Of a stretch of DNA of 64,000 nt, positions 5,070 to 40,852 are shown piece after piece. The notes under the pieces were generated by a model. The model was not told the DNA's origin and searched no databases. It saw nothing but the letters and a program-made list of their open reading frames with translations. Source of the DNA: Diplonema papillatum (Eukaryota > Euglenozoa > Diplonemea > Diplonemida > Diplonemidae); NCBI GenBank assembly GCA_030068145.1, contig JAPJBO010000379.1:1-64000 (forward strand), read 5' to 3'. Position 1 is the stretch's first letter. Every line of letters begins with the position of its first letter. The translations under genes were made by a program, and so were the position numbers.

Positions 5070-6219
5070 TTCTGTTCTGTTCTGTAGGGCGGAACGAAGC
5101 CCGGGCAAGACGAGGCAAGACGGTCTCTAACGGGCAAGCGTACAGTGGTTCTTTGTGCCACCATTTACTCCGTTGTGTTGTTTGTGATGGAGTGATGACT
5201 ACTACTTGTTCGTTTATCGGTTTTTTGTTTCACGTAAATTGTTTTTCCTTCTGGCTACGGTTCTTGGTTCTCGTTATTGGGTTCGCTTTCTGGTAATGGT
5301 TTTCGGTTTACGTAAATTGGTTCTCTTTCTGTTAACGGTTTTCGGTTCACGTAAAAGTTTGAGGTCCTACTCCAAGTCCGAGGGCGTGGTCAGGGCGCGC
5401 AGCTTTTCATGTTTCAATGCTGTCTCCTCCGAGCCGTACCTTCTCGGGTGAGCATCGGACCTCAGTTTTGCTTGCGATGCTTGAGGCACCTATACGTACT
5501 GGGCAAATCAATTCGCTTTTCGCTAGTAATGCCTCTGCTCCTCTTTCTACTTTCTTGGTTCAAAGTGTCAAGTGCAAGGTGCCGGAGTAGAATTCTCTAG
5601 CTTCCTACTCTCGTTCTCCATTTGTACTTCGCTTCGCTTTGCCTTCGTTTCGTCGCTCTTCGAGGTTGCTTCGACGTCGGGGGTCGGCCGTCTCGCGGTC
5701 ACGGTCGTGACTGTTCCTCGGACGCGCTCTCGTGGGCCGGGGGGGTTGTCCCTCCGACGGACGAGGCGGGGCCCGGTATGCGGTGGTTGAGTCGGGGCCG
5801 AGTCCGATTACGGGCGTGCAAATCCGCTGGCCTCGAGTTCGCGTGTTTGTGTCGCGGTTCTCGTGGCGGATGGGCGGGATTCGGTGGGCTGTTCGTCGGG
5901 TGTGGTCGGCACGAGTATCCGGTACTCCTCCAGCAGTCCGGTCCCTTGCAGGTACTCGAGTGCCGTCTCCGGGTGTTCGAACAGCAATCTCCACAGCTGT
6001 TCGTGTCTCGGTATCCACACCGGTTGGCCACCCTCCCGCCGTAACGGGGAGGCCACTTCCCACATCAGGTCACGCTTCCCTTGCGTCCCCTCATGGCCGC
6101 AGTCCAAGAAAAGGTGCGAGACCGGGCACTCGGCTACCTCTCCGCAATGCGGGCAGGGACGATTCGAGCTCCGTTCGGACTTCGCTAACGCGTCGTAGTC
6201 CTCCCGGCACCAATTGCGA
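5070..6219 (-). mobile_element. LINE-A copy 2, 5'-truncated
   Basis: A second LINE-A copy with the same 3' UTR as copy 1 and three CAGAA tail units (5070-5084). Its coding remnant is 5808-6219. The tail runs straight into truncated LINE-B, and its 5' end runs straight into a tRNA-Ser-like sequence at 6221. Confidence 0.75.
5808..6219 (-). pseudogene. LINE-A ORF2 C-terminal fragment, copy 2
   Basis: This encodes the same LINE C-terminus as copy 1, starting at NWCREDYDAL, with the CPHCG...SHLFLDC finger. It reads through the position where copy 1 has TAG and ends ...ELEASGFARP, so it preserves the longer native C-terminus. Residues predicted upstream of 6219 in this frame derive from the tRNA-like sequence and are not LINE protein. 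Confidence 0.7.
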
Positions 6220-6220
6220 T

Positions 6221-6301
6221 GCAGACGGCAGGATTTGAACCTGCGCGGGCAGGGCCCAATGCATTTCGAGTGCAACCCCGTAACCACTTGGGTACGTCTG
6301 C
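6221..6301 (-). tRNA. tRNA-Ser(CGA)-like sequence, probably a relic
   Basis: Read on the minus strand it folds as a class II tRNA. It has a 7-bp acceptor stem (GCAGACG/CGTCTGC), a CCC/GGG D stem, an anticodon loop CTCGAAA giving CGA, a long variable arm (GGGC/GCCC) and a T arm GCAGG-TTCAAAT-CCTGC. The anticodon stem has one mismatch. No run of T follows the 3' end; LINE-A sequence starts after a couple of bases. That placement and the missing pol III terminator suggest a captured tRNA copy rather than an active gene. No encoded CCA is present. Confidence 0.75.
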
Positions 6302-6317
6302 CTTCCCCATATTTTTC

Positions 6318-7218
6318 CCTTTACTCGGCCCTTGTGTTTCTCCGACAACATCTCGCCCCGACGTCCCGCCCACTCCACATCCTCGTCCTGAGCGACTCCC
6401 AGTCGTTTCTAAAAACTCTCAGCGCCGGCCCCCATTCACAAGTCGAACCACTGGCGATAGAGTGCTGGACAATCCTGTCGGAAATGGAGGCGAGGGGATA
6501 CGACGTCACCTTGCACTTCGTGTACGGGCACTGCGGGCTGGAAGGCAACGACGCGGCGGACGTGCTGGCCAAAGCTGCAGCTCTCGGGTACCGACGGGCC
6601 GCCGGAGCCTCTTCCTCGGATCACCCCGAGCCCTTCCCCCTAACCGTCGCTGGTGCAGTCTGCCGCTATCGGACGTATCTGCGGCTGAACAGCAGCGAGG
6701 CAGGTGCCAAGGAAGCATTCGAGCGCGCGGACGGCCACGGGAACCTCTCGCCGTTTGCCCGGATTGTTCATGGCCGGCCGATCCCCCGACGCCGTCATCT
6801 CACGCCGAGGGCTGAACGCGAAGTGCGCCAGCTGAGGACCGGGCACCACCGCCTGATCATGACGCTGTACGCCACGGACTGGCGCTCCTTCAGCGAGGCC
6901 GAGTTGCAGTCCCATTTCCTCCCGTGTCCGGTCTGCGGGGTCCGCTCTACCAGCCCCCTGCTGCACTTGTTCGTACACTGCCGTGACCTAATAACGGCAC
7001 CCTTGAGGGCGGCGATGCGACATGATATCACGAGGCGGATCAAAAAGGACCCAGGCGGTCCGATCGAATCCCTCTGGTACTACCTGTTCGTCCATCCCGA
7101 GCACGCCCTGTTCTACCTCCAGAGAGCTGGCGCCCTCCCACCCTTCCAAGTCCTTGTGGAGTCTGACAAGGACGAAGCCCCCCCGAACCACGAGTACGGG
7201 CTCGTGCCCATCATGTGA
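6318..7218 (+). pseudogene. LINE-C ORF2 fragment: partial RNase H and CCHC finger
   Basis: The frame enters RNase H after its first two catalytic residues (ALVFLRQHLAP...), keeps the aspartates in VLSDSQS and GNDAAD, then the arginine-rich block (PRRRHLTPRAEREVRQLRTGHH) and the finger CPVCG...LHLFVHC (CX2CX9HX4C). It stops at TGA after HEYGLVPIM, exactly as LINE-C copy 2 does. No internal stop is seen, so it is a young, 5'-truncated copy. The predicted N-terminal residues before 6318 come from the antisense of the tRNA-like sequence. Confidence 0.8.
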
Positions 7219-7689
7219 GGCAACGTCACCCGTCCACGCAGCGGCTGCAGTCCGAGGCAGGGGATCGCCGGGGCCTGGGTACTCTCGCGCCGGCCATCCT
7301 GAACCCGTCACCTGCCACGGTGCTCTCGCAGTTCGCAGCACGTCGCCGTCGACGCCGGACGACGCCGCACCGCCCCGCGCAGCCCGACTGAGGCTCCGCG
7401 TCCAGCGCGCGCTTCGTACGCATCGCCAGAAGAGGACGCAGGCTAACCGCTGAGCGAAATGTGCACTCGTCTTATTTTCTTAATTGGTACAAACGTGCAC
7501 TCGTCTTATTTCACAAGACTCTTGTCGAGATCGTACAGTTCAGTCTGCTGCGCTCCAGTAAGCACCACTCGGAACCCGGCTGGAAGGCCCTAAAGGGGAG
7601 TAGTCGGTGCCAGCACTTTATTGTTGTCCATCCCCACCCGGACTCCTCCGTCAACGAGTCCCAACAAACAACATCAATCGGTAACCCCC

Positions 7690-8438: not shown

Positions 8439-8458
8439 CATTCATTCATTCATTCATA
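8439..8458. repeat. (CATT)n simple repeat
   Basis: About five CATT units just before the presumed LINE-D 5' end. It could be the tail of the preceding LINE-C or a slipped microsatellite. Confidence 0.7.
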
Positions 8459-8677
8459 TTTTACTTTATTGGTATGGGAGTTTGGTTGGGAGGGAAGGTG
8501 GCGAAAACAAGTCGACTGCAACGTTAGGTGAACCTGTGCCCTGTCCGTGCACCGCCTGAAGCGAAGGCAGACGCCGCAAATTCCTCGCCGGCCCACCGCC
8601 AGAAGCTTACCCGCCGACCGTGGGACATCAACACTCTACGAATCGCGGTACAGCTCATCACCAGAGGGTCCGCTCCG

Positions 8678-11600
8678 ATGATGCTAGCTTACCTTTGCAT
8701 CGGCCTTGCGTTCATCCCGGAGTTCGAAGAGCGCTCCATCCAGTGCTTGATGGACGCTGGGTCTGCACCTGACGCGATACTGACACACCCGCGCCCGCCT
8801 CTGTTCACCCTTTCCGACGGGCCGCCGCAACCGCCGAACCTTCCAACACCAGCTGACTCGAACCCGGCGGCGTACTACCTCCAGGACGACGACGACCGGA
8901 ACTCGTGGGCCGTGGCCAACTGGGAAGAGGAGACGTGCATCCGGTTCACGAAGTGCAGCAGCCCCTTCACGTGCGAGGAGCCGTTCATGGTCTTCGTCTC
9001 GGACGCCAGCCGGTGTGACGCGCCGGTCGGAACTTCCGGCTGCGTCAGCGAAGTCAACATCCGGACTATCCGCTACCAAGGTTGGGTCGCTCATGTGACC
9101 GCGCACGCCCTGGGCCTCTCGCGCGAGAACACGAGGAACGACAGGGACGGGTACGTGACCCTCAACGAAAGCAACATCTGGTCGAAGTCGGAACGTGCCG
9201 CCGACCGCTGCCGCGCTATCGCTGGCGGTGCTGCCTTCCGGCGTGGACGTGGCGAAGAAGACGGATTTGTCGAGTTCCACAGCGAGGGTCACCTGCAGCC
9301 CGTGGTGCATGAGGCTCCAGTAGTCGTACGGGCCCGGGTCGCGCCCCGAGGGGCCAAATTACTCGAAGTCGCCGGCTCCTTCTCCACCAACTTCGCCGTC
9401 ACGATCTCCGACGTGTCGGTTGCAACCTGCTCGGTCGTCGCGCGAATGGCTGCAGGCACAACAGACGCGCCGCCGTCCGCCGTCCCACAGACAGCAGCTC
9501 CCGCACCGTGCACATGGCATGCCGCATCTGCATCTCCCTCGCCCCCTAGAGCATACGGCGGCTGGTTCGAACGCGACCGCTACGGCTCGCACTCTGCTGT
9601 CGGGTGCTGCGAGGACCGTCCCTGGACGCGACCTTCATCTGTCACTGCCGCCGACACCGTTTGGGATCCCCTGATCCTCCCTGACCTTACCCACGCCATC
9701 GACGCGCCCTGCCTCCCGCGCCTACCGCAGCCCCCTCGTTCCATACTACGGAGTCTGCCAGCGAGACAACGAAGGTTGATGAGGGCGGCTGTCAGGCGCC
9801 GGAGCATGCTCCGAGCTCAACGTGCCACGCTCGAAGGCACCACTGACAACGTCCTTGTCCCCCACGCTCGTGCATCACCGTTGGTCCTCGGCGGCGGTTG
9901 TACGCAAAACACGTCTGTTGCGGTCAACCCCGTGCGACCCCCGCCCTCGACTACAACGCTCGCAACAACGTCCGTCCCGCCTGCCCCCGACACTCCTGCA
10001 CTGCTGTCGTTCTGGGTCTGTGACCCCTCCGGCAAGCACCGACACTGCACGGTGGACAGTGAAACTGTCGTCGGGGACTTCTTCGCGCAGTCGACTTGGT
10101 TTGACCCCGACGTGTGCTGGATTTCGCAGGGAACCAGGCAACTAGTCCTCTCGGACTCCTTTGCCGAGAACGCCGTCAACCGCGACGACACACTGACCGT
10201 GATGGTCAGGCTCCTCGGGGGAGGTGGCCGAGGTAGTTGGCGCGGCGGCAAGGGAAACAGGGGCGGTAGGGGCGCTGGGTCCTCGGGTACCAGCGTGCCA
10301 AGTGCCCCCGCTGGGGATGCGAGCTCCGGGACTAAGGGGCACAAGGGCGGAAAATCGCGCAGGGGGAATGGACCACCCGATGGCCTCGTGTGGAGTGATG
10401 GCGCAAGGGACTGCGATAAAGCTGACCTGTATCGCGACTGGGAGTTCCCTGAGATGCGCTTTCGAGCCGTCTTCCCCCTGCACGTGTTCGACGGCGACGT
10501 CACCCATGCGTCATGGGAAGAAGTGTCGGGCTCCCCGTTCCAGTGGGGGCAGTACTACCTGCACAGCGTCCTGACCCGCGGTGCAGTTAACTCGTGCTGG
10601 GATGCTGCAGCCAAACAAGAGTTCTCCCGGGGCGAAGTTTACCAGACCTTGGAGATACACTTTTCGGCCAACGCAGCAGATGAAGTCGACATTCTGCGCG
10701 CAAGCGGGTACCAGGGTGCGTACTTTGAACCGCTGAACTCGCAAGATTACCGTGTCCTACTGGTCCCGGATAGGGCGGACATGGGGGAAGTCAGCAGCAT
10801 CGCAGCCAAGATAGACCATCTCCAACTGGGTCTTTCTTACTGCAGAGGGGAATTGGGTGTTCGAGTCAGGGCATCCTCGTACGCCGAAGCCCGTCAGCTG
10901 TTACCGGATCTACCCGCGGAGATCGCCTATTTCGCGGTGGCTGGCATCCCCTGCGGTTCGAACGCAAACACGCTGCAACGGAACTTGACGCGCTTGGGGT
11001 GGAACGTCACGCCTTTGTTCAAGACGGCCAAATCGGGACGATACGCCGAGTGGGCTGTCAAGTCCGAGACGCTCCCGGGAAGGTTTGACTGCGATCTCCT
11101 CAACGGCATGCGCATCACCATCAAAAGGGTGGATCGGTACCCGATCCAACCCTCCAGACATATCGCGTCCGTCCGCCTCTCGTCCTCATACAGAGACGAA
11201 TCGAACACGCTGCGTTGCGACGTACATGAAGGTTCAACACCGGTTCCGTACAGCGTATTCCTCGAGCGCTACGGCAAAGCTGCCAGTACCCTGTGGGAGC
11301 TTGCTGGTAAGAGCAGTACCACGGATGGTGCGGACGGATCTTCCTTTGGCAACGACGGCACCCCTCTAGCCGGCGGGAGCGAGGTCGGGCTGACGTCCTA
11401 TGCAAAAGCGACTCTGCGGCCTTGCAGCTCGCCCCCGCCGGCCCGTGCAAATCCCACCTCATCGTCCTCACCGTCGTCCTCGCCAGTTAATCCGCCTAGG
11501 GCTGTCGCCGACATCGACGAACTCGAGCTGCAATCCCTGGTTCGCAGCCTTGTTAAAGAAGCAACCTCGTCCACTGCCTCCGCACCTGTTCCGCGGGTCG

Positions 11601-12370
11601 CACCCCTGCCCGAACAGCCCCCCACGCAAGACGCTGCCGCGTTCAAAGAGTTTGTCGGCAGCATAGTGCGGGAGAGTGTTGCCGACATGGAGAAAAAGCG
11701 TGCTCCCACCCTTGGTGCATGTGAGGTAGCAACCCTGGTCGAAAACTCTGTCGGAGCATGTGTCGCGCAGAAAGTGTCAGAGGCCGTCGCTGGTCCGCTC
11801 CTCGAAGTCACCGCTCAACTGAAGCTGATGGGGGAACGGATGACGACGCTTGCGGCGAGGGTGGATGAGGTCCAGTCGTCCTCCGCTGGTAAGGGGGCTA
11901 ACAACAACAACAAGGGATCGAAAATGACTTCTCCATCCCCAACCCCTGAGCGCGACATGCCCTTAGTGGTACACAATACCTCAGAACAAAGTCAGACCTT
12001 AGTTGCTGCCCCCCCGGCCGAAGCCAGCCTCGGGCTGGTTCCCTACAGCCAGAACCTAGTCAGCACCGAGCTAGCCCAGCCCCTGGTCAACCGGCCCCAG
12101 AAGCTGGATGCGATGAAGGTCGCCATGCCGGTCCTGGACGGGGACAGCGTCAAGGAAAACGTGAAGATAATCACGGCCTTGCACAAGAAAATGAAGTCGA
12201 CGCGGCCGAGATCCCGAAGCTTGACTTTGTCGCAAGACAGCACCGCGTCGCAACACAGCGCCGCTAATCAGGCGCTCCTCGCGGACGTATGCGGCCCGGT
12301 AGATGACGCCCCTTGCTCAGACGCCCCTTGCTCATTTCGCGCCTGCGAAATCGAGCGGGAGCGGATGTAA
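8678..12370 (+). CDS. LINE-D ORF1 protein with astacin-like and ubiquitin-like domains
   Basis: The frame is open from 8528 through a GTG, but the first ATG pair is at 8678/8681, chosen here (1230 codons). A short hydrophobic start (MMLAYLCIGLAFI) is followed at residues ~77-172 by an astacin (M12A) metalloprotease-like domain: WEEETCIRF, a cysteine-bearing middle, and RNDRDGYVTLNESNIW. Its zinc motif HExxHxxGxxHE is degraded to HVTAHALGLSRE (9092-9127): the catalytic Glu is Val and the third His is Arg, so it should be inactive. Residues ~442-517 (10001-10228) form a ubiquitin-like domain starting LLSFWVCDPSGK and ending DDTLTVMVRLLGGGG. An RGG-rich stretch follows, then a possible RRM-like fold (~749-815) and a coiled-coil-prone region (~946-1068). 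RNA binding is inferred from the RGG block and from ORF1 roles in LINEs. The ORF ends TAA one base before an ATG in the ORF2 frame. Confidence 0.85.
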   Translation: MMLAYLCIGLAFIPEFEERSIQCLMDAGSAPDAILTHPRPPLFTLSDGPPQPPNLPTPADSNPAAYYLQDDDDRNSWAVANWEEETCIRFTKCSSPFTCEEPFMVFVSDASRCDAPVGTSGCVSEVNIRTIRYQGWVAHVTAHALGLSRENTRNDRDGYVTLNESNIWSKSERAADRCRAIAGGAAFRRGRGEEDGFVEFHSEGHLQPVVHEAPVVVRARVAPRGAKLLEVAGSFSTNFAVTISDVSVATCSVVARMAAGTTDAPPSAVPQTAAPAPCTWHAASASPSPPRAYGGWFERDRYGSHSAVGCCEDRPWTRPSSVTAADTVWDPLILPDLTHAIDAPCLPRLPQPPRSILRSLPARQRRLMRAAVRRRSMLRAQRATLEGTTDNVLVPHARASPLVLGGGCTQNTSVAVNPVRPPPSTTTLATTSVPPAPDTPALLSFWVCDPSGKHRHCTVDSETVVGDFFAQSTWFDPDVCWISQGTRQLVLSDSFAENAVNRDDTLTVMVRLLGGGGRGSWRGGKGNRGGRGAGSSGTSVPSAPAGDASSGTKGHKGGKSRRGNGPPDGLVWSDGARDCDKADLYRDWEFPEMRFRAVFPLHVFDGDVTHASWEEVSGSPFQWGQYYLHSVLTRGAVNSCWDAAAKQEFSRGEVYQTLEIHFSANAADEVDILRASGYQGAYFEPLNSQDYRVLLVPDRADMGEVSSIAAKIDHLQLGLSYCRGELGVRVRASSYAEARQLLPDLPAEIAYFAVAGIPCGSNANTLQRNLTRLGWNVTPLFKTAKSGRYAEWAVKSETLPGRFDCDLLNGMRITIKRVDRYPIQPSRHIASVRLSSSYRDESNTLRCDVHEGSTPVPYSVFLERYGKAASTLWELAGKSSTTDGADGSSFGNDGTPLAGGSEVGLTSYAKATLRPCSSPPPARANPTSSSSPSSSPVNPPRAVADIDELELQSLVRSLVKEATSSTASAPVPRVAPLPEQPPTQDAAAFKEFVGSIVRESVADMEKKRAPTLGACEVATLVENSVGACVAQKVSEAVAGPLLEVTAQLKLMGERMTTLAARVDEVQSSSAGKGANNNNKGSKMTSPSPTPERDMPLVVHNTSEQSQTLVAAPPAEASLGLVPYSQNLVSTELAQPLVNRPQKLDAMKVAMPVLDGDSVKENVKIITALHKKMKSTRPRSRSLTLSQDSTASQHSAANQALLADVCGPVDDAPCSDAPCSFRACEIERERM

Positions 12371-15300
12371 AATGCAGTCGCCACCGCATCGAGGGGTAAC
12401 CCCCCCCGATGCCCACCACCGCGCCCATCCGGCCGGTCCACCCCCCACCCCTGGCGCACCACCGCGAGCAGCCAACACCAATACTGCTTCGCGCCGGGAG
12501 CCGGCCCCTCCGCCGGGTCGCGGCCGGCGGCGGAGGCGCACCGCCAGTACCTCCGCTGCCGCTGCACCCTTTGACCCCGATAACATCCTTTTGATCGTGT
12601 CGTACAACTGCCGATCATTTTGGGCAAGGGAGTCCATCCCTGGTGGTACCAATAGTATCAGCCGAGGGGTCACCAACATGTCTCCGAGGATCCCGGACAT
12701 CCTGCTCCTTCAAGAGACATGGCTCTCGAGCAAGTCCCTTCCCCCTCGCCTCGACGGCTACCGAGTCTTCAGACGCGACCGAGACGGAGACGCCCGCGGC
12801 GGAGGTGTTCTCACCTTCGTTCGCACAAGCCTGCTCGCGACGGAAATCCCGCCCCCTGATATCGACGCCGACTCCTCTCTAGATTGCGTTGCTGTCGAGA
12901 TCACTCGCATCGGCCTTCCCCCCCTGAGGGTGTACAATGTGTACCGCCCGCCCCGCAAGGAAGGGAGAGACCTGTGCATGGAGCCGTTCCCGATGGACGA
13001 CCACGTGGTCATCGCCGGTGATCTCAACGTCCACCACCCGGACTGGTCTCGGGGAGCCGAGAACACAGGCGGAAAAATCCTCAGGGACTGGCTCGTCGAG
13101 GCGTCTGCCATGACCCTGAACGACCCGTCGGTCTCCACGATGGCCTACCGCCCCCACGCCAGGTACTCCTCTCCGGATGTGGTAATCTCCACCCCCACCT
13201 CCAACATCCGCAATTGGAGAGTGCTGGATTCTTGGGGTACCACCCGGGACCACCTCCCCATGGCGTTCGAAGTTCCCCGGGGGTACTCCCAGCCGCGCGT
13301 CCTCCGCAAAACTTGGTTCTCTTGGGCACGGGCTGACTGGGATGGCATGATGGAGCATCTCGACGAGGAGAGCTCTGTCCTACTCGCAAACCGGCCGGCA
13401 ACCAATGTGCAATTCGCTAAGCGAGTCGCTTCGACGTTCCGCCGTGCTGTACACCAGTTTGTCCCCCGGTATCGACAAGGACGTCCGTACAAGGAATGGT
13501 GGACCCCGGGGCTCTCTGCTCTAGAGCGTGTCAAGGGGGCGGCCTTCACCGCCCTCCTCGCCGACCCTGACGCCCCACACGCACAGCGCGCCTACTCCGA
13601 CGCGGTCGCCAGATTCGCGTCGGCGGCCACGCAGGCGAAGGCGGCTCACTGGAATGCCTTCTCCGGGAGGATCAACCGCTGCACGGACATTGGGCTGCTC
13701 TTCCGCCTGATCCGCAAGATCGACGGTCGAACACAGCAGAACAATATCCCCCCCATCCGGCTCGGTCACTCGTACTATGTTGCCGCAGACGGGAAGACGG
13801 AGCTTTTTGGGGATCACCTCAAACGGGTGTGCGGCGGTTCGACAGCTACCAAACCGCCGCCGTGGTTCCCCGCTAAAGAACCATCCAACGACGACGCTGG
13901 CTGCGGGCTCATCACCGCCGACGAGCTCGATCGGGCCCTCAACAACCTCGACCCGAAGACTTCGCTCGACCCTGACGGGCTTTGCAGTGAGTTCCTCCGC
14001 CGACTCACCGACGGTGCCAGGGCCCTCATCCTTGAGTTGGTCAACATTTCGTGGGAGGAAGGCTTCGTTCCCGAATCCTGGCGAGACGCCCACGTCGTCC
14101 CCGTCCCGAAACCTGGACGGGACCACTCCTTGCCGGAGGGTTACCGGCCGATATCTCTAACGAGTGTGATCTCCAAGGTAATGGAAGTCATCGTGAAGAA
14201 TCGGCTCGAGTACCTCACGGAAAGCCCGCAACATCCTGAGGTCCGGCGTTTTAACTCGCGGCAGGGTGGCTTCCGCAAGGGTCGCGGTCCCGAAGAGCAG
14301 CTGTTCTCGATAGTTTCGGCTCTCGACTCTGCCAGGAACCGTCTGCTCTTCACGTGTTTGCTGTCGTTCGATCTGGCGAACGCGTTCGATACCGTCGACC
14401 ACGGCAAGCTGATGGACATCCTGCAGCGAAGAGGGGTGCCCGCCAAGTTCCTTCGCTGGATCGAGGCCTTCCTACGGAACAGGAAGGCTGCCTACAAAAT
14501 CGACGGAGCGACTGGCCGCTTCTTCGATTTGTATACCGGCGTCCCCCAGGGGACGGTGCTCGGCCCCCTTCTGTTTTTGTATTACATCGACGACCTCGGT
14601 TCGGACCTCGATCGGCTGCAGCGCCGCATCCATCTGGACAACGTCGGGGCGACGATAACCTTCTCCCTGTATGCTGATGATGACGGCGTTGCAGTGGAGG
14701 CCCGCACGTTTGCCGCCCTCGAGCAGTACGCGCAAGATGTTGTCGACGTGGTGGAGCGCTGGACGGCGCAGGCGCTGATGTCCCTGTCCGTTCTGAAGAC
14801 CAGAGGTGTCTTCTTCGTTGGAAAGAACGCAGCCCCTTTCCCCCCACCGAACGTAGTCTTCAAGGCGACGAGGGCTGACGTCCCTGTTCCCCCTGCTGAC
14901 ACCGAACGGCGAGTGTCGGCAGAGGGTAGATTGGTGGGGACGAACACGCCACATGACGGCAAAACATTCGTTGGCATCGCGTTCGGGCCCGTAACAGAGG
15001 CCAATGCCGGGCTCACACTGCTCCACTCGGTGGTTACCCTTCAGTGGGTTGACAAAGTGAAGCTTCTTGGGTTAACCATCGACCAAGGATTCACCTTCCT
15101 CCCTCACCTCCAACGGGTTGTCGATGGATTCTCGCTGAGGATGAACCTCCTTCGACACCTGGCCGGCAAGGATTACGGCTTCAACGGCACGGTTCTCCGC
15201 ACCCTGTATCTCTCCTATGTGCTACCCACGTACACGTACGCACTCGGAATCTACGGGCCATTCATCCTCCCCGCTAATGGGCCCCTCACAACACTTGAAC

Positions 15301-16931
15301 GCATGCATCGTCGTGCCCTTACCCTCATCCTGGGCTGTCGCAAAGGCGTCGCTGAATTCGCCGGGCAACAGGAGACTGGTATCCTCCCGATCCGCGCGCT
15401 CGCAAAGTGCAGGATCGCGGCCCTCCGGGAGAAGGTTGAATTCAACAAGGTTCTGTGGGCGCACGAGCTTTCCCTGGACACGCTCCTGAAGTCGACGTCC
15501 GACAACATCCGCAAGAAAGCGGGCACGGACGGTTGCCGTCGGGAGCTCCGCGACTTCCATTTGTTCGCCCCCTGGGTTCCCAGGCCCGACGTCGAGATCT
15601 ACACGTCGCTGAAAGTCCGCAAGCACGCCAGCAATGCGGAGAAAAAACAAGCGGTGCTGAAACGCCTGGCGGAACTACCCCACCCGGACTGCGTCGCCTG
15701 GCCAGACGGCTCCGTTGTACACGGTGACCCCCCTCTGCCCTCGATCTGCGACGCCAACGCCAGCGCTGCCCTACGCCCGTGGCTGAGGAGCACGGCGGAC
15801 CGTACGACCTGGGGGGCTGCCGGCGTGTTTATTGATCTTGGGCCGTCGGTCACCATCAAGCCGGACCACGGCCTGCCCGTCAAGCTCACCGGCGACCGAC
15901 GCACGTTCGATGCCTCTTTGCCCGCCGGCAAACACCCGCACAGCTACCGCGCCGAGGAGTTCGCGCTCTACAGCTGCCTGAAGTTCCTCCTGCGCCTCCT
16001 CCCGCCAACCCCGACGCCGCTCAACATCCTCGTCCTCAGTGACTCTCAGTCACTCCTGATGACGCTGAGCCACGGCCCCCATTGCCAGACGCAGCCGTAC
16101 CCAATCGCGATCTGGCTGCACCTGGCCGAGTTGGAGTCGCTGGGCTACACCGTGACGCTGCAGTTCGTCTTCGGCCACTGCGGCCTCGAAGGCAACGAGA
16201 GGGCGGACAAGACCGCAAAACGTGGTGCACTCGCGTTCATGCGGGCGGCCACCGACGCCGCGGCCAAGAATCTACCCCCTCCGCTCTCGGCACGCCTCTG
16301 CGCCACGGCCGCTAACAGCCGCTATCGTTCCGTCCTCTGGCTGGAGAGCAGTGAAGCTGGAGCACGAGACGCCTTGGACAGGGCCACCCTCCTCAGGAAC
16401 CCGTCGTCGTTCGCCAGGTTGGTCTCTGGCCGCCGCATCCCCCGCCCCAAGCACTTGGCACCACGGGCGGAAAGAGAGGTGCGGCAGCTCCGCACTGGCC
16501 ACCACCACCTGGTGATGACCATGTACGCCACCGAATGGCGCGACCTCTCGAGGGCGGATCGCAGACAGGCGTTTCTCCCGTGCCCTATTTGCGGCACCCG
16601 GTCGTTGGCCCCGCTACTCCACCTCTTCGTCGGATGTGACGCCCCCGCTGCAGCGCTGTCCAGGCTGACGATGGACGCCGACCTCGACGCGAAGAGCCGC
16701 CTCCATGCGAAGCCGCCGCCCGTCGATGCCATGGAGCGCCTCTGGGCAATCCTCTTCGTTTTTCCGGAACTCGCTCTGGCGTACCTGCAGAGGTGCGGCA
16801 CTCTGCCGAGTTACGGTATCCTCGCCGGCCAGACGTCCGCCGAGCCCGTGGGCGGCGGCGTCAATCGCTCCATAACGCCTGACGCCGCCTCCTCGCGCTC
16901 CGCCGACTCGGACGACGCGATCTCTCGCTGA
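12303..16931 (+). CDS. LINE-D ORF2: APE endonuclease, reverse transcriptase, RNase H
   Basis: A 1542-codon frame encoding the retrotransposition enzyme. APE endonuclease at ~97-320 (YNCRS, LLQETW with Glu138, AGDLNVHH with Asp240, TTRDHLPM with His317). RT at ~520-840 (SFDLANAFD with Asp690, PQGTVLGPLLF, YADD at 790-793). RNase H at ~1130-1305 (Asp1135, Glu1218, Asp1247, Asp1302). C-terminal finger Cys1427, Cys1430, His1440, Cys1445. All catalytic residues are present, so it may be active. It belongs with RNase H-bearing LINE clades such as I or R1; the exact clade is not resolved. The first ATG overlaps ORF1 by 68 nt. A second in-frame ATG at 12372 follows the ORF1 stop by one base (TAAAATG) and is an equally likely start by reinitiation. 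Confidence 0.9.
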   Translation: MTPLAQTPLAHFAPAKSSGSGCKMQSPPHRGVTPPDAHHRAHPAGPPPTPGAPPRAANTNTASRREPAPPPGRGRRRRRTASTSAAAAPFDPDNILLIVSYNCRSFWARESIPGGTNSISRGVTNMSPRIPDILLLQETWLSSKSLPPRLDGYRVFRRDRDGDARGGGVLTFVRTSLLATEIPPPDIDADSSLDCVAVEITRIGLPPLRVYNVYRPPRKEGRDLCMEPFPMDDHVVIAGDLNVHHPDWSRGAENTGGKILRDWLVEASAMTLNDPSVSTMAYRPHARYSSPDVVISTPTSNIRNWRVLDSWGTTRDHLPMAFEVPRGYSQPRVLRKTWFSWARADWDGMMEHLDEESSVLLANRPATNVQFAKRVASTFRRAVHQFVPRYRQGRPYKEWWTPGLSALERVKGAAFTALLADPDAPHAQRAYSDAVARFASAATQAKAAHWNAFSGRINRCTDIGLLFRLIRKIDGRTQQNNIPPIRLGHSYYVAADGKTELFGDHLKRVCGGSTATKPPPWFPAKEPSNDDAGCGLITADELDRALNNLDPKTSLDPDGLCSEFLRRLTDGARALILELVNISWEEGFVPESWRDAHVVPVPKPGRDHSLPEGYRPISLTSVISKVMEVIVKNRLEYLTESPQHPEVRRFNSRQGGFRKGRGPEEQLFSIVSALDSARNRLLFTCLLSFDLANAFDTVDHGKLMDILQRRGVPAKFLRWIEAFLRNRKAAYKIDGATGRFFDLYTGVPQGTVLGPLLFLYYIDDLGSDLDRLQRRIHLDNVGATITFSLYADDDGVAVEARTFAALEQYAQDVVDVVERWTAQALMSLSVLKTRGVFFVGKNAAPFPPPNVVFKATRADVPVPPADTERRVSAEGRLVGTNTPHDGKTFVGIAFGPVTEANAGLTLLHSVVTLQWVDKVKLLGLTIDQGFTFLPHLQRVVDGFSLRMNLLRHLAGKDYGFNGTVLRTLYLSYVLPTYTYALGIYGPFILPANGPLTTLERMHRRALTLILGCRKGVAEFAGQQETGILPIRALAKCRIAALREKVEFNKVLWAHELSLDTLLKSTSDNIRKKAGTDGCRRELRDFHLFAPWVPRPDVEIYTSLKVRKHASNAEKKQAVLKRLAELPHPDCVAWPDGSVVHGDPPLPSICDANASAALRPWLRSTADRTTWGAAGVFIDLGPSVTIKPDHGLPVKLTGDRRTFDASLPAGKHPHSYRAEEFALYSCLKFLLRLLPPTPTPLNILVLSDSQSLLMTLSHGPHCQTQPYPIAIWLHLAELESLGYTVTLQFVFGHCGLEGNERADKTAKRGALAFMRAATDAAAKNLPPPLSARLCATAANSRYRSVLWLESSEAGARDALDRATLLRNPSSFARLVSGRRIPRPKHLAPRAEREVRQLRTGHHHLVMTMYATEWRDLSRADRRQAFLPCPICGTRSLAPLLHLFVGCDAPAAALSRLTMDADLDAKSRLHAKPPPVDAMERLWAILFVFPELALAYLQRCGTLPSYGILAGQTSAEPVGGGVNRSITPDAASSRSADSDDAISR

Positions 16932-35010: not shown

Positions 35011-35999
35011 AAAAAAAACTGGCCCAGCGCCCCCTCAGGGGCGCCCCGGGTTGCCGAGGACCCTGCCGGTGGCGGCGACGCTGCTGGGTCCCCCGAGCCT
35101 GGGGCCTGTGCCGGCACTGAAGGGGTGGGCTGCCCCCCGATGGCGTCGGGAGGCTCCGGCTGACCGGAGTCCCGTGCGGGCGTCGCGAGGGCAGAATCGG
35201 CGGGCGCCTGCGACGAAGCGAGGGCCGCGGGGACGGGCGGCTGTTCCTCGGGGCTCGGCGGAACAACGACATCGTGCAAGGCGAGGCTGAAAAGCAGCGG
35301 TCCCAAGGGGTCTCCTTGTTGGACTCCGCACTCGGAGGAGATCCCCCGGTCGCCCACCACTAGCGCGGAGTGTTTCTCGTACGCTGCCAATGCGTACCCC
35401 AACAGCTGGGGGGCGTGACGGTTGACACTGCGGATGATCGCTTCCCGCCGAAGCATGTTGAAGGCGTTCGCGAAGTCGATCTGCAGTATCCCCCGGTCCG
35501 TCACGTCTCTGTCGCGGTACAGGGCCGCGACCCTGCGAATGGCGTGCACGCCTGCGTCGGCCCCCGCCTTGACACTGACGCCGACTTGCCCACTCCGCAG
35601 GAGGACGTTCGCCCCCAGGTCCTTGATTGCCCGGTCGGATGCGAGGACCTTGCCGGCCACCCGGCGCATAATCTCCCCACATGCAATGGGCCTGATGCCG
35701 CCGGACTTCTTAACCAACGGGACGAGCCTCGCCCCGAACAGGCTGCAGCCAGTGTGAGACTTAGCTAGCTATTTGGCCAGCTAGCTATTTTTAGCTATTT
35801 ATAGCTAAAAATAGCTGCCCAGACGACTGAAAATATGTTCACGTCTTTTTCGTCAGAAAACCTCAGGTAGGTGCCCAAAAATGCAAAAAAATTGCGACGA
35901 AACCAGATTTTCTGCCTCGTTCTCGTTTTCAGAGTCGCCCAACCCCCCCCTGGTACCCCCCCCCGCCCTCTCCGGGCCGTGTCACGGCGTGTGCAGGGT

Positions 36000-37912: not shown

Positions 37913-40852
37913 TTTTTTTTTTTTTTTTTTGGATGAGGCACCTTTTCCTTCTATCCTTTCTTTTTTGGAAACAAATTGAAGACATGAGAACACACAAACG
38001 CAAACGGTGGTGCCGTCATCAAAGGAAGAAACCAAAAAAGGAAAGGAGAGGAAGAGGCCAACTGCGCGTTGCTCGTCGTGCTTTTGCTCGTGCTGAACTC
38101 GTTGCCGTGTTGGCGTTCAATGCGCAACGAACCTTTGCAACAACGTGGTGCTGAGTGCCCTCACCGTGCTGTTCCAGCTGCGAGCTGGGGAAGGGACGAG
38201 GGGTGATACTGATATTGGTTGTTCGGGACTCGTTGACGGGAGGAGTCCGAGTGGGGAAGGACAACAACCAAGTGCTGGCACCGACTCCCCTTTAGGGCCT
38301 TACAGCCGGGTTCCGAGTGGTGTTCAGCAGCCGTGCGGCGTGTCAGTGTGTACACATGGGTGTTCCAGGCGGGGTTGCGAGGCTCCGCGGAGACAACGTT
38401 CGCCACTTTAGATCATGTACTATGATGTAGGCACCGACCCTCCCCTTTAGGGCCTTTTGTAACAGCCGGGTTCCGAGTGGTGCTTACTGGAGCGCAGCAG
38501 ACTGAACTGTACGCTCTTGACATGAGTCTTGTGTGCCGTACTAATTAGACGTGTGCACGTTTGTTCCAAATAAGAAAAAAAGACGAATGCACATTTCGAT
38601 CCAGCGGTTTGCCTGCATCTCTTCTAGCGTTGGTGGACGCGGAGCCTCAGTCGGGCTGCGCGGGGCGGTGCGGCGTCATCCGGCGTCGACGGTGTCGTGC
38701 TGCGAACTGCGAGAGCACCGTGGCAGATGACGATTTCAGGTTGGCCGGCGCGGGAGACCCCAGGCACCGGCGGTCCCCTGCATCGGGCTGCAGTCGCTGC
38801 GTGGGTGGGTGGGCCACGTTGCCTCACATGATGGGCACGAGCCCGTACTCGTGGTTCGGGGGGGCTTCGTCAGTGTCAGACTCCACAAGGACTTGGAAGG
38901 GTGGGAGGGCGCCGGCTCTCTGTAGGTAGAACAGGGCGTGTTCGGGATGGACGAAAAGGTAGAACCAGAGGGATTCGATCGGGCCACCTGGGTCCTTTTT
39001 GATCCGCCTCGTGATCTCATGTCGCATCGCCGCCCTAAGGGGTGCCGTAATTAGGTCACGGCAGTGCACGAACAAGTGCAGCAGGGGGCTGGTAGAGCGG
39101 ACCCCGCAGACCGGACACGGGAGGAAGTGAGTCTGCAACTCGTCCTCGCTGAAGGAGCGCCAGTCCGTGGCGTACAGCGTCATGATCAGGCGGTGGTGCC
39201 CGGTCCTCAGCTGGCGCACTTCGCGTTCAGCCCTCGGCGTGAGATGACGGCGTCGGGGGATCGGCCGGCCGTGAACAATCCGGGCAAACGGTGAGAGGTT
39301 CCCGTGGGCGTTCGCACGCTCGAACGCTTCCTTGGCGCCTGCCTCGCTGCTGTCCAGTCGCAGGTACGTCCGATAGCGGCAGACTGCACCAGCGACGGTT
39401 AGCGGGTAGGGCTCGGGGTGATCCGCGGAAGAGGCTCCCGCGGCCCGTCGGCACTCGAGTGCTGCTGCTTTGGCCAGCACGTCCGCCGCGTCGTTGCCTT
39501 CCAGTCCACAGTGCCCGTACACGAAGTGTAAGGTGACGAGGTATCCCTTCGCCTCCAATTCCGACAGATTTGTCCAGCACTCTATCGCCAGTGGTTCGAC
39601 TTGAGAATGGGGGCCGGCGCTGAGAGTTTTTAGAAACGACTGGGAGTCGCTCAGGACGAGGATGTGGAGGGGGCGGGGCGTCGGGGCGAGATGCTGTCGG
39701 AGAAACACAAGGGCCGTGTAAAGGGCGACCTGTTCCGCGCGGTAGCTGTGGACGTGCTTGCCTACCGGGCATGATCGGGTAGTCGTGTGCCGATTTCCGA
39801 TGGCTGTCTTCAAGTCAGCGACGTCGCGCAGGCTGGGCGTGATCGACGGTTCGAACACGAAGTACAAACCGGCACCGCCCCACGTTGTTTTGTCCGCGTA
39901 GCGTTTCAACCATGGGCGATGTCGCTCGTCCCACCTGTCGGCTATCGAGGGCGGCGGCTGGGGCGGGGGGGCACCGTCGAGCACCGAGCCGTCTATCCAC
40001 GCTGAGCAGTCCGGCGGCTCGAGCCGGTTCAGCCGGTTTACGACAATGCGCCTCTTCTCAGCAGCCGAGTCACCCTTCTTCCCCGGCAGGGTGGCGACGA
40101 TCGTCACTTTGGGACTCGGCGTCCATGGGGCAAACGGGTTGAAAACGAATGCCTCTCGTTTGCACTCGACCGTTCCGGCCTTCTCGCACAGGGTGTCGTA
40201 GCTGCGCCTCAGAGTCGTGTTCATGGCGAGGTCGTTCCGCCAGAGCGTGCACCGGAGTCGCATCCTCTCACGCAGAGCGGCGATACGGAGATTCGCTATC
40301 GCTCGGAGCGGCAGAATCCCGGATTCCTGCTGCGCCGAAAAATCCGAGGTGTTCTTCCTGCACCCGAGGAGAATGACCTGGGCGCGCCGGTGCAGCCGCT
40401 CGAGCGTCGTGACCAGGGGGGATGTGGACCGAAGGAGGTATGGGCCGTAGACCGACAGGGCGTACGTATACGTCGGCAGGACGTACGTCAGATACAGCGT
40501 GCGCAGCGTACACGAGTTACATCCGAACGACTTTCCGGAAAGGTGACGCAGGAAATTCATCTTCAAAGAAAACTTGTCGACGACGCGTTGCATGTGGGGG
40601 ACGAACGTGAGCTCCGAGTCTATGACCAGGCCAAGGAGCTTGGTCTTGTCGACCCAGCGTAGGGCGTCGGCTACTCGAATGGTCACCAGGCGGTTTTTGG
40701 TGGCGTCCTTGTCGCCGCCATTTTTCTCGTCGACTGAGACGATCAGCTTGCCGTGGTGTTGGTGCCAGGGCGAGCGCTCATCCGGTTCCAGGAACTTCCA
40801 CGTCGACCTCGACTTCAACGCTATAACGTAGTAGTCAGGGACCAGAACATCG
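37913..40852 (-). mobile_element. LINE-C copy 2, 5'-truncated
   Basis: Coding 38824-40852 on the minus strand, 3' UTR to 37931 with repeated blocks (38161-38340 and 38425-38500 share CTCCCCTTTAGGGCCTT), ending AAAGGTGCCTCATCC and an A18 tail (37913-37930). The 5' edge at 40852 joins an RLE-a fragment head to head; the tail runs into RLE-a copy 4. Confidence 0.85.
38824..40852 (-). pseudogene. LINE-C ORF2 fragment: RT thumb, RNase H, CCHC finger
   Basis: 676 intact codons starting IDVLVPDYYVIALKSRSTW, which lies after RT motif C. Then the thumb/connection (LRTLYLTYVLPTYTYALSVY), complete RNase H (WIDGS, YRAEQVA, LSDSQS, GNDAAD), and the CPVCG...LHLFVHC finger, ending HEYGLVPIM. Endonuclease and the RT catalytic core are missing. 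The frame continues upstream of 40852 through antisense RLE-a and MITE sequence, which is accidental. Confidence 0.85.

Follow-up and report, generated by a model that had tools for sequence, protein, structure and literature searches.

The ORF1 locus

The window, a stretch of 64,000 nucleotides from the genome of the marine flagellate Diplonema papillatum, contains a LINE (non-LTR retrotransposon) copy on the forward strand at 8461..16931; the first coordinate marks the approximate 5' end and the second is where ORF2 stops. The 5' end was placed at about 8457-8462 because near-identical copies L028, L035, and L036 begin to match the window at 8461, 8457, and 8462, respectively. ORF1 (8528..12370, +) is 1280 aa long when read from stop to stop; a stop in the leader frame lies just before 8528 in the window copy, and the same frame is open in L028, L035, and L036. 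ORF2 (12303..16931, +) overlaps ORF1 by 68 bases and carries an endonuclease and a reverse transcriptase that pass the Pfam cut-offs, together with a weak RNase H match under its cut-off. Assignment to the LINEs is based on this arrangement, in which an ORF2 with an APE-type endonuclease and a reverse transcriptase follows ORF1. The genome searched here comprised 271 Mb, and the published assembly is about 280 Mb (PMC10161547). All relatives of the ORF1 protein among the matches listed in three protein searches, whose candidates were limited to a preselection by shared words (7990 scored in one of them), came from D. papillatum.

Two other features were observed. Positions 6317-7240 and 38802-39725 of the window are inverted copies, each of 924 bases, with 94% complementarity; the first arm (6317-7240) lies in the frame 6199-7218, and by eye the product of this frame looks like the C-terminal end of ORF2. 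Elsewhere in the genome, L013 is a recombinant element in which a divergent ORF1 (65-67% identity upstream) is joined to a stretch 99.2% identical to window positions 11978-13331.

The ORF1 protein (ORF1p) follows a plan of variable leader, basic motif, predicted ubiquitin-like domain (Ubl) ending in Gly-Gly (GG), Gly/Arg/Lys-rich linker, and a core that is tentatively RRM-like. The leader contains an astacin-like segment (residues 127-223; 8906..9196, +) that matches Pfam PF01400 with an E value of 1e-13 and has a degenerate catalytic motif. The basic motif, which begins PPRSILRSLPARQRRL (9731..9865, +), lies upstream of the Ubl and is recognizable in five of the six ORF1 proteins compared, P0009 being the one in which it was not found. 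A preliminary description of this DNA had noted a ubiquitin-like stretch of about 76 residues at 10001-10231. This stretch is real, in frame, and repeated in the genome (70 matches), and its residues 442-517, numbered from the ATG at 8678, correspond to residues 492-568 of the stop-to-stop frame 8528-12370; the part equivalent to ubiquitin is slightly shorter, at 73 residues ending in LLGG (10004..10222, +). Its GG (10217..10222, +) is the first two of four consecutive glycines. The linker that follows is 68 residues long and fast-evolving (10223..10426, +), and the alpha/beta core, tentatively called RRM-like from a structure model and searches, lies at 10451..11131 (+). No match to eS30 (PF04758) was present among the Pfam hits of ORF1, and the C-terminal partner of the Ubl is the LINE ORF1 core.

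Fold and sequence affinity of the domain

AlphaFold2, given an alignment of only 7 rows, produced a Ubl model with high pLDDT over the core and a tail disordered from the GG onward; two of the five models were poor (66.2 and 42.8). The predicted topology is the beta-beta-alpha-beta-beta of the ubiquitin fold. Ubiquitin was the best structural match among 350,542 chains, with the GG in register with G75-G76 according to the structural alignment ranges and with an identity of about 16-23%, and ISG15 was among the close matches. The beta-grasp fold expected from the preliminary description is therefore what structure prediction returned. A model of 433 residues was poor, with a mean pLDDT of 54.5 and the Ubl part near 30-45.

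The sequence searches gave weaker signals. Pfam did not recognize the ubiquitin family in the LINE Ubl of either lineage (types A and B, described below), as the PF00240 cut-off was not reached, and the only Pfam match of the window domain was to Gln-synt_N, another beta-grasp family, at an E value of 0.09-0.11, below the cut-off. Searches with single LINE Ubl sequences found nothing ubiquitin-like, and none of the 106 genome matches to PF00240 was a LINE copy. A 12-row profile compared to 177,635 PDB sequences gave 16 hits (best E value 0.0083), of which 9 were FUBI or FUBI-eS30, 2 ISG15, 2 ubiquitin, and 3 other proteins; the GG was aligned in this search, which reached both FUBI and ubiquitin. 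Two column-shuffled control profiles gave 10 and 1 hits, and none of these 11 belonged to the ubiquitin family. Profiles of a single type each found one ubiquitin-family protein, among 7 and 13 hits. With hhalign, for which small profiles were used, type A against type B scored above all 200 column shuffles at a probability of only 21%. For type A against the host ubiquitins, 1 of 200 shuffles scored at least as high (probability 6.9%), and for the joint profile 2 of 200 did; type B against the host ubiquitins showed no signal (196 of 200 shuffles were as good).

Given the structural match on the one hand and the weak profile and Pfam results on the other, kinship with ubiquitin is well supported by the predicted fold and modestly by sequence. 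Judged from these models, the LINE Ubl very probably has the ubiquitin fold. That the predicted fold is an artefact, the segment being some other small alpha/beta domain or a linker, could be argued from the 7-row alignment, the weak sequence match, the low confidence of the longer model, and the sub-cut-off match to Gln-synt_N, but it is highly improbable in view of the high core pLDDT, the top rank of ubiquitin among all the chains, and the separate profile search that also reaches FUBI and ubiquitin with the GG aligned.

Conservation of the domain and its terminal glycines

Among the 70 Ubl matches in the genome, 66 aligned to the last query residue, 1 aligned to residue 75, and 3 were half-domains. 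The GG was kept in all 36 loci read of this lineage (type A), many of which are near-identical and some front-truncated. Representative type-A subfamilies share 63-82% identity with the window, and their last residues are LLGG, VLGG, or MLGG. For three subfamilies compared to the window, the dN/dS of the Ubl was 0.08, 0.19, and 0.20, with synonymous change (1.2-1.6) close to saturation. The flanking linkers are less conserved than the Ubl in three comparisons, at 29-35% identity upstream and 41-49% downstream. In two of these, the RRM-like core was 67% and 70% identical and the Ubl 81% and 64%; in the third, which involved the chimeric P0008 family, the values were 38% for the core and 64% for the Ubl. 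Upstream of the complete Ubl, L010, L011, L012, and L013 carry a second, partial one that covers only the front half and has no GG; in three of the four it was also hit in the genome search, and it is perhaps a trace of module exchange.

A second lineage (type B) was found with another subfamily as the query. In P0009-P0012, the equivalent segment starts FIVTGVDGKRHCLTANL or FFVTGVDGKRRCVSASL and ends VLGG. Type B is 20-27% identical to type A and, among the rows of the 12-row alignment, 18-26% identical to the window. Type B has at least 150 genome matches (scored, out of 192 candidates), and all 150 aligned through the LGG columns. The GG was present in 15 of 15 type-B loci read; the position after it is occupied by G, K, R, D, or Y, and in no case by Pro. 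Since the GG is kept before K, R, D, or Y, it is more than the start of a glycine run. Nine distinct complete Ubl sequences of type A and 14 of type B were compared. In the alignment of both types, only a Phe and the terminal GG are invariant in 12 of 12 rows; the rows had been cut off behind the GG, and the untrimmed type-B translations agree. The type-B rows L073, L074, L075, and L077 also contain an inner LGG. A predicted Ubl with a conserved GG is thus present in two divergent ORF1 lineages, and the glycines, whose constancy among copies the preliminary description had left to be checked, are conserved in both.

Exchange of leaders and modules

The window and P0009 are 98.8% identical over residues 72-329, the astacin-like leader, but only 23% identical in the Ubl and 38% in the core. 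Because they share a leader yet differ in what follows, leaders have been exchanged between the lineages upstream of the Ubl. P0008 combines a type-A Ubl and linker with a type-B core. Its Ubl is 63% identical to the window and 77% to P0006, its linker 43% and 66%, respectively, and its core is 64-69% identical to P0009, P0010, and P0012 and 38% identical to type A. This combination indicates that the Ubl and linker also move as one unit, with the breakpoint of the swap after the linker and not at the GG. The leaders of the window (8528-9516) and of P0009-P0012 contain astacin-like and hydrophobic, signal-like segments that are near-identical across the divergent ORF1 lineages.

The zinc site of astacins (M12A) has the motif HExxHxxGxxH. 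This motif is missing from the window and from five of the six other astacin-bearing relatives, and P0010 keeps it intact. The astacin-like character of the N part, as first described, therefore holds as a PF01400 similarity and does not extend to an intact zinc site in the window. An active astacin that splits ORF1 was rejected for the window family, as the zinc motif is degenerate.

A candidate cleavage site and its alternatives

The GG in the middle of ORF1 looks like a built-in cut site for host ubiquitin-removing enzymes. By analogy with known fusions, we consider it rather likely that a host enzyme, either a deubiquitinase or a Ubl protease, cleaves ORF1p after the GG, in the way that USP36 cuts FUBI-eS30. 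The leader would be translated together with the Ubl as one ORF1p, and the host enzyme would then cut after 10222. The cut would free the RNA-binding core, beginning with its Gly/Arg/Lys-rich arm, from whichever leader a copy carries, and the leader could change without damage to the RNP protein. Of the internal ubiquitin junction originally suggested to split ORF1, the ubiquitin-like domain and the conserved terminal GG are supported, and the cleavage is a proposal drawn from them.

This proposal is favored by the structural match, in which ubiquitin ranks first, its glycines align with the GG, and the tail is disordered from there, by the profile hits on FUBI, ISG15, and ubiquitin, by the GG being kept in all loci read of both types, by the low dN/dS of the Ubl between poorly conserved linkers, and by the exchange of leaders upstream of the Ubl together with the type-A Ubl and linker on a type-B core in P0008; FUBI-eS30 and the 2A of L1Tc are precedents. 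It is weakened by the P0008 breakpoint lying after the linker instead of at the GG, by the failure of Pfam to see ubiquitin here, by the weak sequence signals, and by the poor quality of some models. Host USP genes were found in the D. papillatum genome by a PF00443 search.

Integral Ubls are common, for instance in shuttle factors. In another explanation, the LINE Ubl would likewise stay uncut for good and serve as a docking domain for host ubiquitin receptors, the proteasome, or chaperones, with the GG being only where a flexible RGG-like linker begins. In the families read, the Ubl is indeed followed by glycine-rich linkers, and type A shows four consecutive glycines. This explanation is possible but doubtful since the GG is the most constant dipeptide of the domain and is kept before K, R, D, or Y. 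The freed Ubl and leader could also act as a modifier that is conjugated to host or element proteins via E1 and E2. Arg72 of ubiquitin has a role in E1 choice, and type A keeps Arg at this position (...VRLLGG); ISG15, a conjugated Ubl, is also among the close structural matches. However, type B lacks the Arg72 equivalent and a leader on the N side would be odd on a modifier, making this reading quite improbable. A host-deubiquitinase cut after the GG would be the most economical reading of the mechanism.

Comparison with known systems

The nearest parallel is FUBI-eS30 (FAU), in which a Ubl of about 74 residues ending in RMLGG precedes a basic RNA-binding protein; its sequences also came out nearest when the profile was compared to the PDB. 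The RMLGG tail is identical to that of type-A subfamilies such as L017 and L018. The GG is reported to be required for removal of FUBI, and USP36 performs the cut (PMC8354635); removal by USP36 is also described in a second study (PMC10611586). In contrast to FUBI, the LINE Ubl is internal to ORF1, its partner is not eS30, and its cut is a putative one. The host has five eS30 frames that pass the cut-off; at 72-76 aa, none of them is long enough to include a Ubl in the same exon, so a host FUBI-eS30 gene as the source of the LINE Ubl is unsupported as far as the same exon is concerned. Polyubiquitin genes are present in the D. papillatum genome. The LINE Ubl resembles host ubiquitin and polyubiquitin in its predicted fold and C-terminal GG, but its identity is low (about 16-23%) and PF00240 does not see it. 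By eye, K11 is the only one of the seven ubiquitin lysine positions that holds a Lys in it, and residue 11 is the sole Lys of the 73 residues.

Ubiquitin insertions in pestivirus polyproteins serve a replicating RNA element as a cut site. There the host ubiquitin was captured recently, whereas the LINE Ubl is diverged and found in many families. The 2A is a short peptide that acts during translation. L1Tc, a kinetoplastid LINE, carries a protein-separating 2A (PMC4748587) and so provides an example of such a device in a LINE from a related phylum. A 2A site as the device that splits ORF1 was rejected, as the NPGP motif is absent from ORF1, ORF2, and the relatives checked.

The published LINE ORF1 types I-V include RRM, coiled-coil, CCHC zinc knuckle, PHD, and esterase domains, and both an RRM-like core, tentative here, and shuffling of ORF1 domains have counterparts among them (PMC4120745). 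A Ubl is not among these types, and the main text of that paper does not contain the word "ubiquitin" (PMC4120745). Neither "ubiquitin" nor "astacin" occurs in the main text of the D. papillatum genome paper (PMC10161547). No report of a Ubl or ubiquitin in LINE ORF1 or in diplonemids was found among the titles and abstracts listed by full-text searches of the open literature, several of which listed part of the matching papers.

A multicopy USP element and implications

In the PF00443 search, which scored 149 of 935 candidates, at least about 95 USP domains fell into three classes of equal score (85.9, 85.3, and 76.5 bits), 13 of them in 1562-aa frames and 12 in 1585-aa frames. A copy read in part matched Pfam UCH with an E value of 2.7e-24, and its best PDB relatives were USP12, USP36, and USP46. 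The USP domain lies near the C-terminus of the 1562-aa frame (13 contigs), and the sister family has 1585 aa. Pieces of this element were read as L088 and L091 (C1244:33100-34200 and 35400-35800). In 13 of 13 contigs with the 1562-aa frame, the distance between its second piece and the USP domain is 1350 bases. The USP carrier has no blastn match in the window and is a multicopy element different from the LINE. The other, N-terminal part of the frame gave no Pfam or PDB hit in the one piece read, and may resemble a Penelope-type reverse transcriptase. Another weak multicopy Ubl-like frame occurs at C2345:6324, C2735:6600, and C1514:40431 (PF00240 21.4 bits, below the cut-off); of its copies, L082 and L083 were read, and neither ends in GG.

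A more speculative and, in our view, unlikely extension is that this LINE group as a whole splits a polyprotein by means of a ubiquitin-GG cassette that is folded and exchangeable and that shields the RNP protein from changing, captured leaders, and that the multicopy USP family could supply or compete for the cutting, amounting to a Ubl/deubiquitinase contest between mobile elements and the host.

If ORF1p is cut at the GG, the LINE would depend on the ubiquitin system of its host to make the RNA-binding protein, in addition to the known routes of separate ORFs and 2A, and the free change of ORF1 leaders would be accounted for. The domain would also be a case of a diverged Ubl that has passed beyond the reach of Pfam with its GG kept, and the cut would provide an experimental entry point to the LINE biology of marine protists that form an abundant group.
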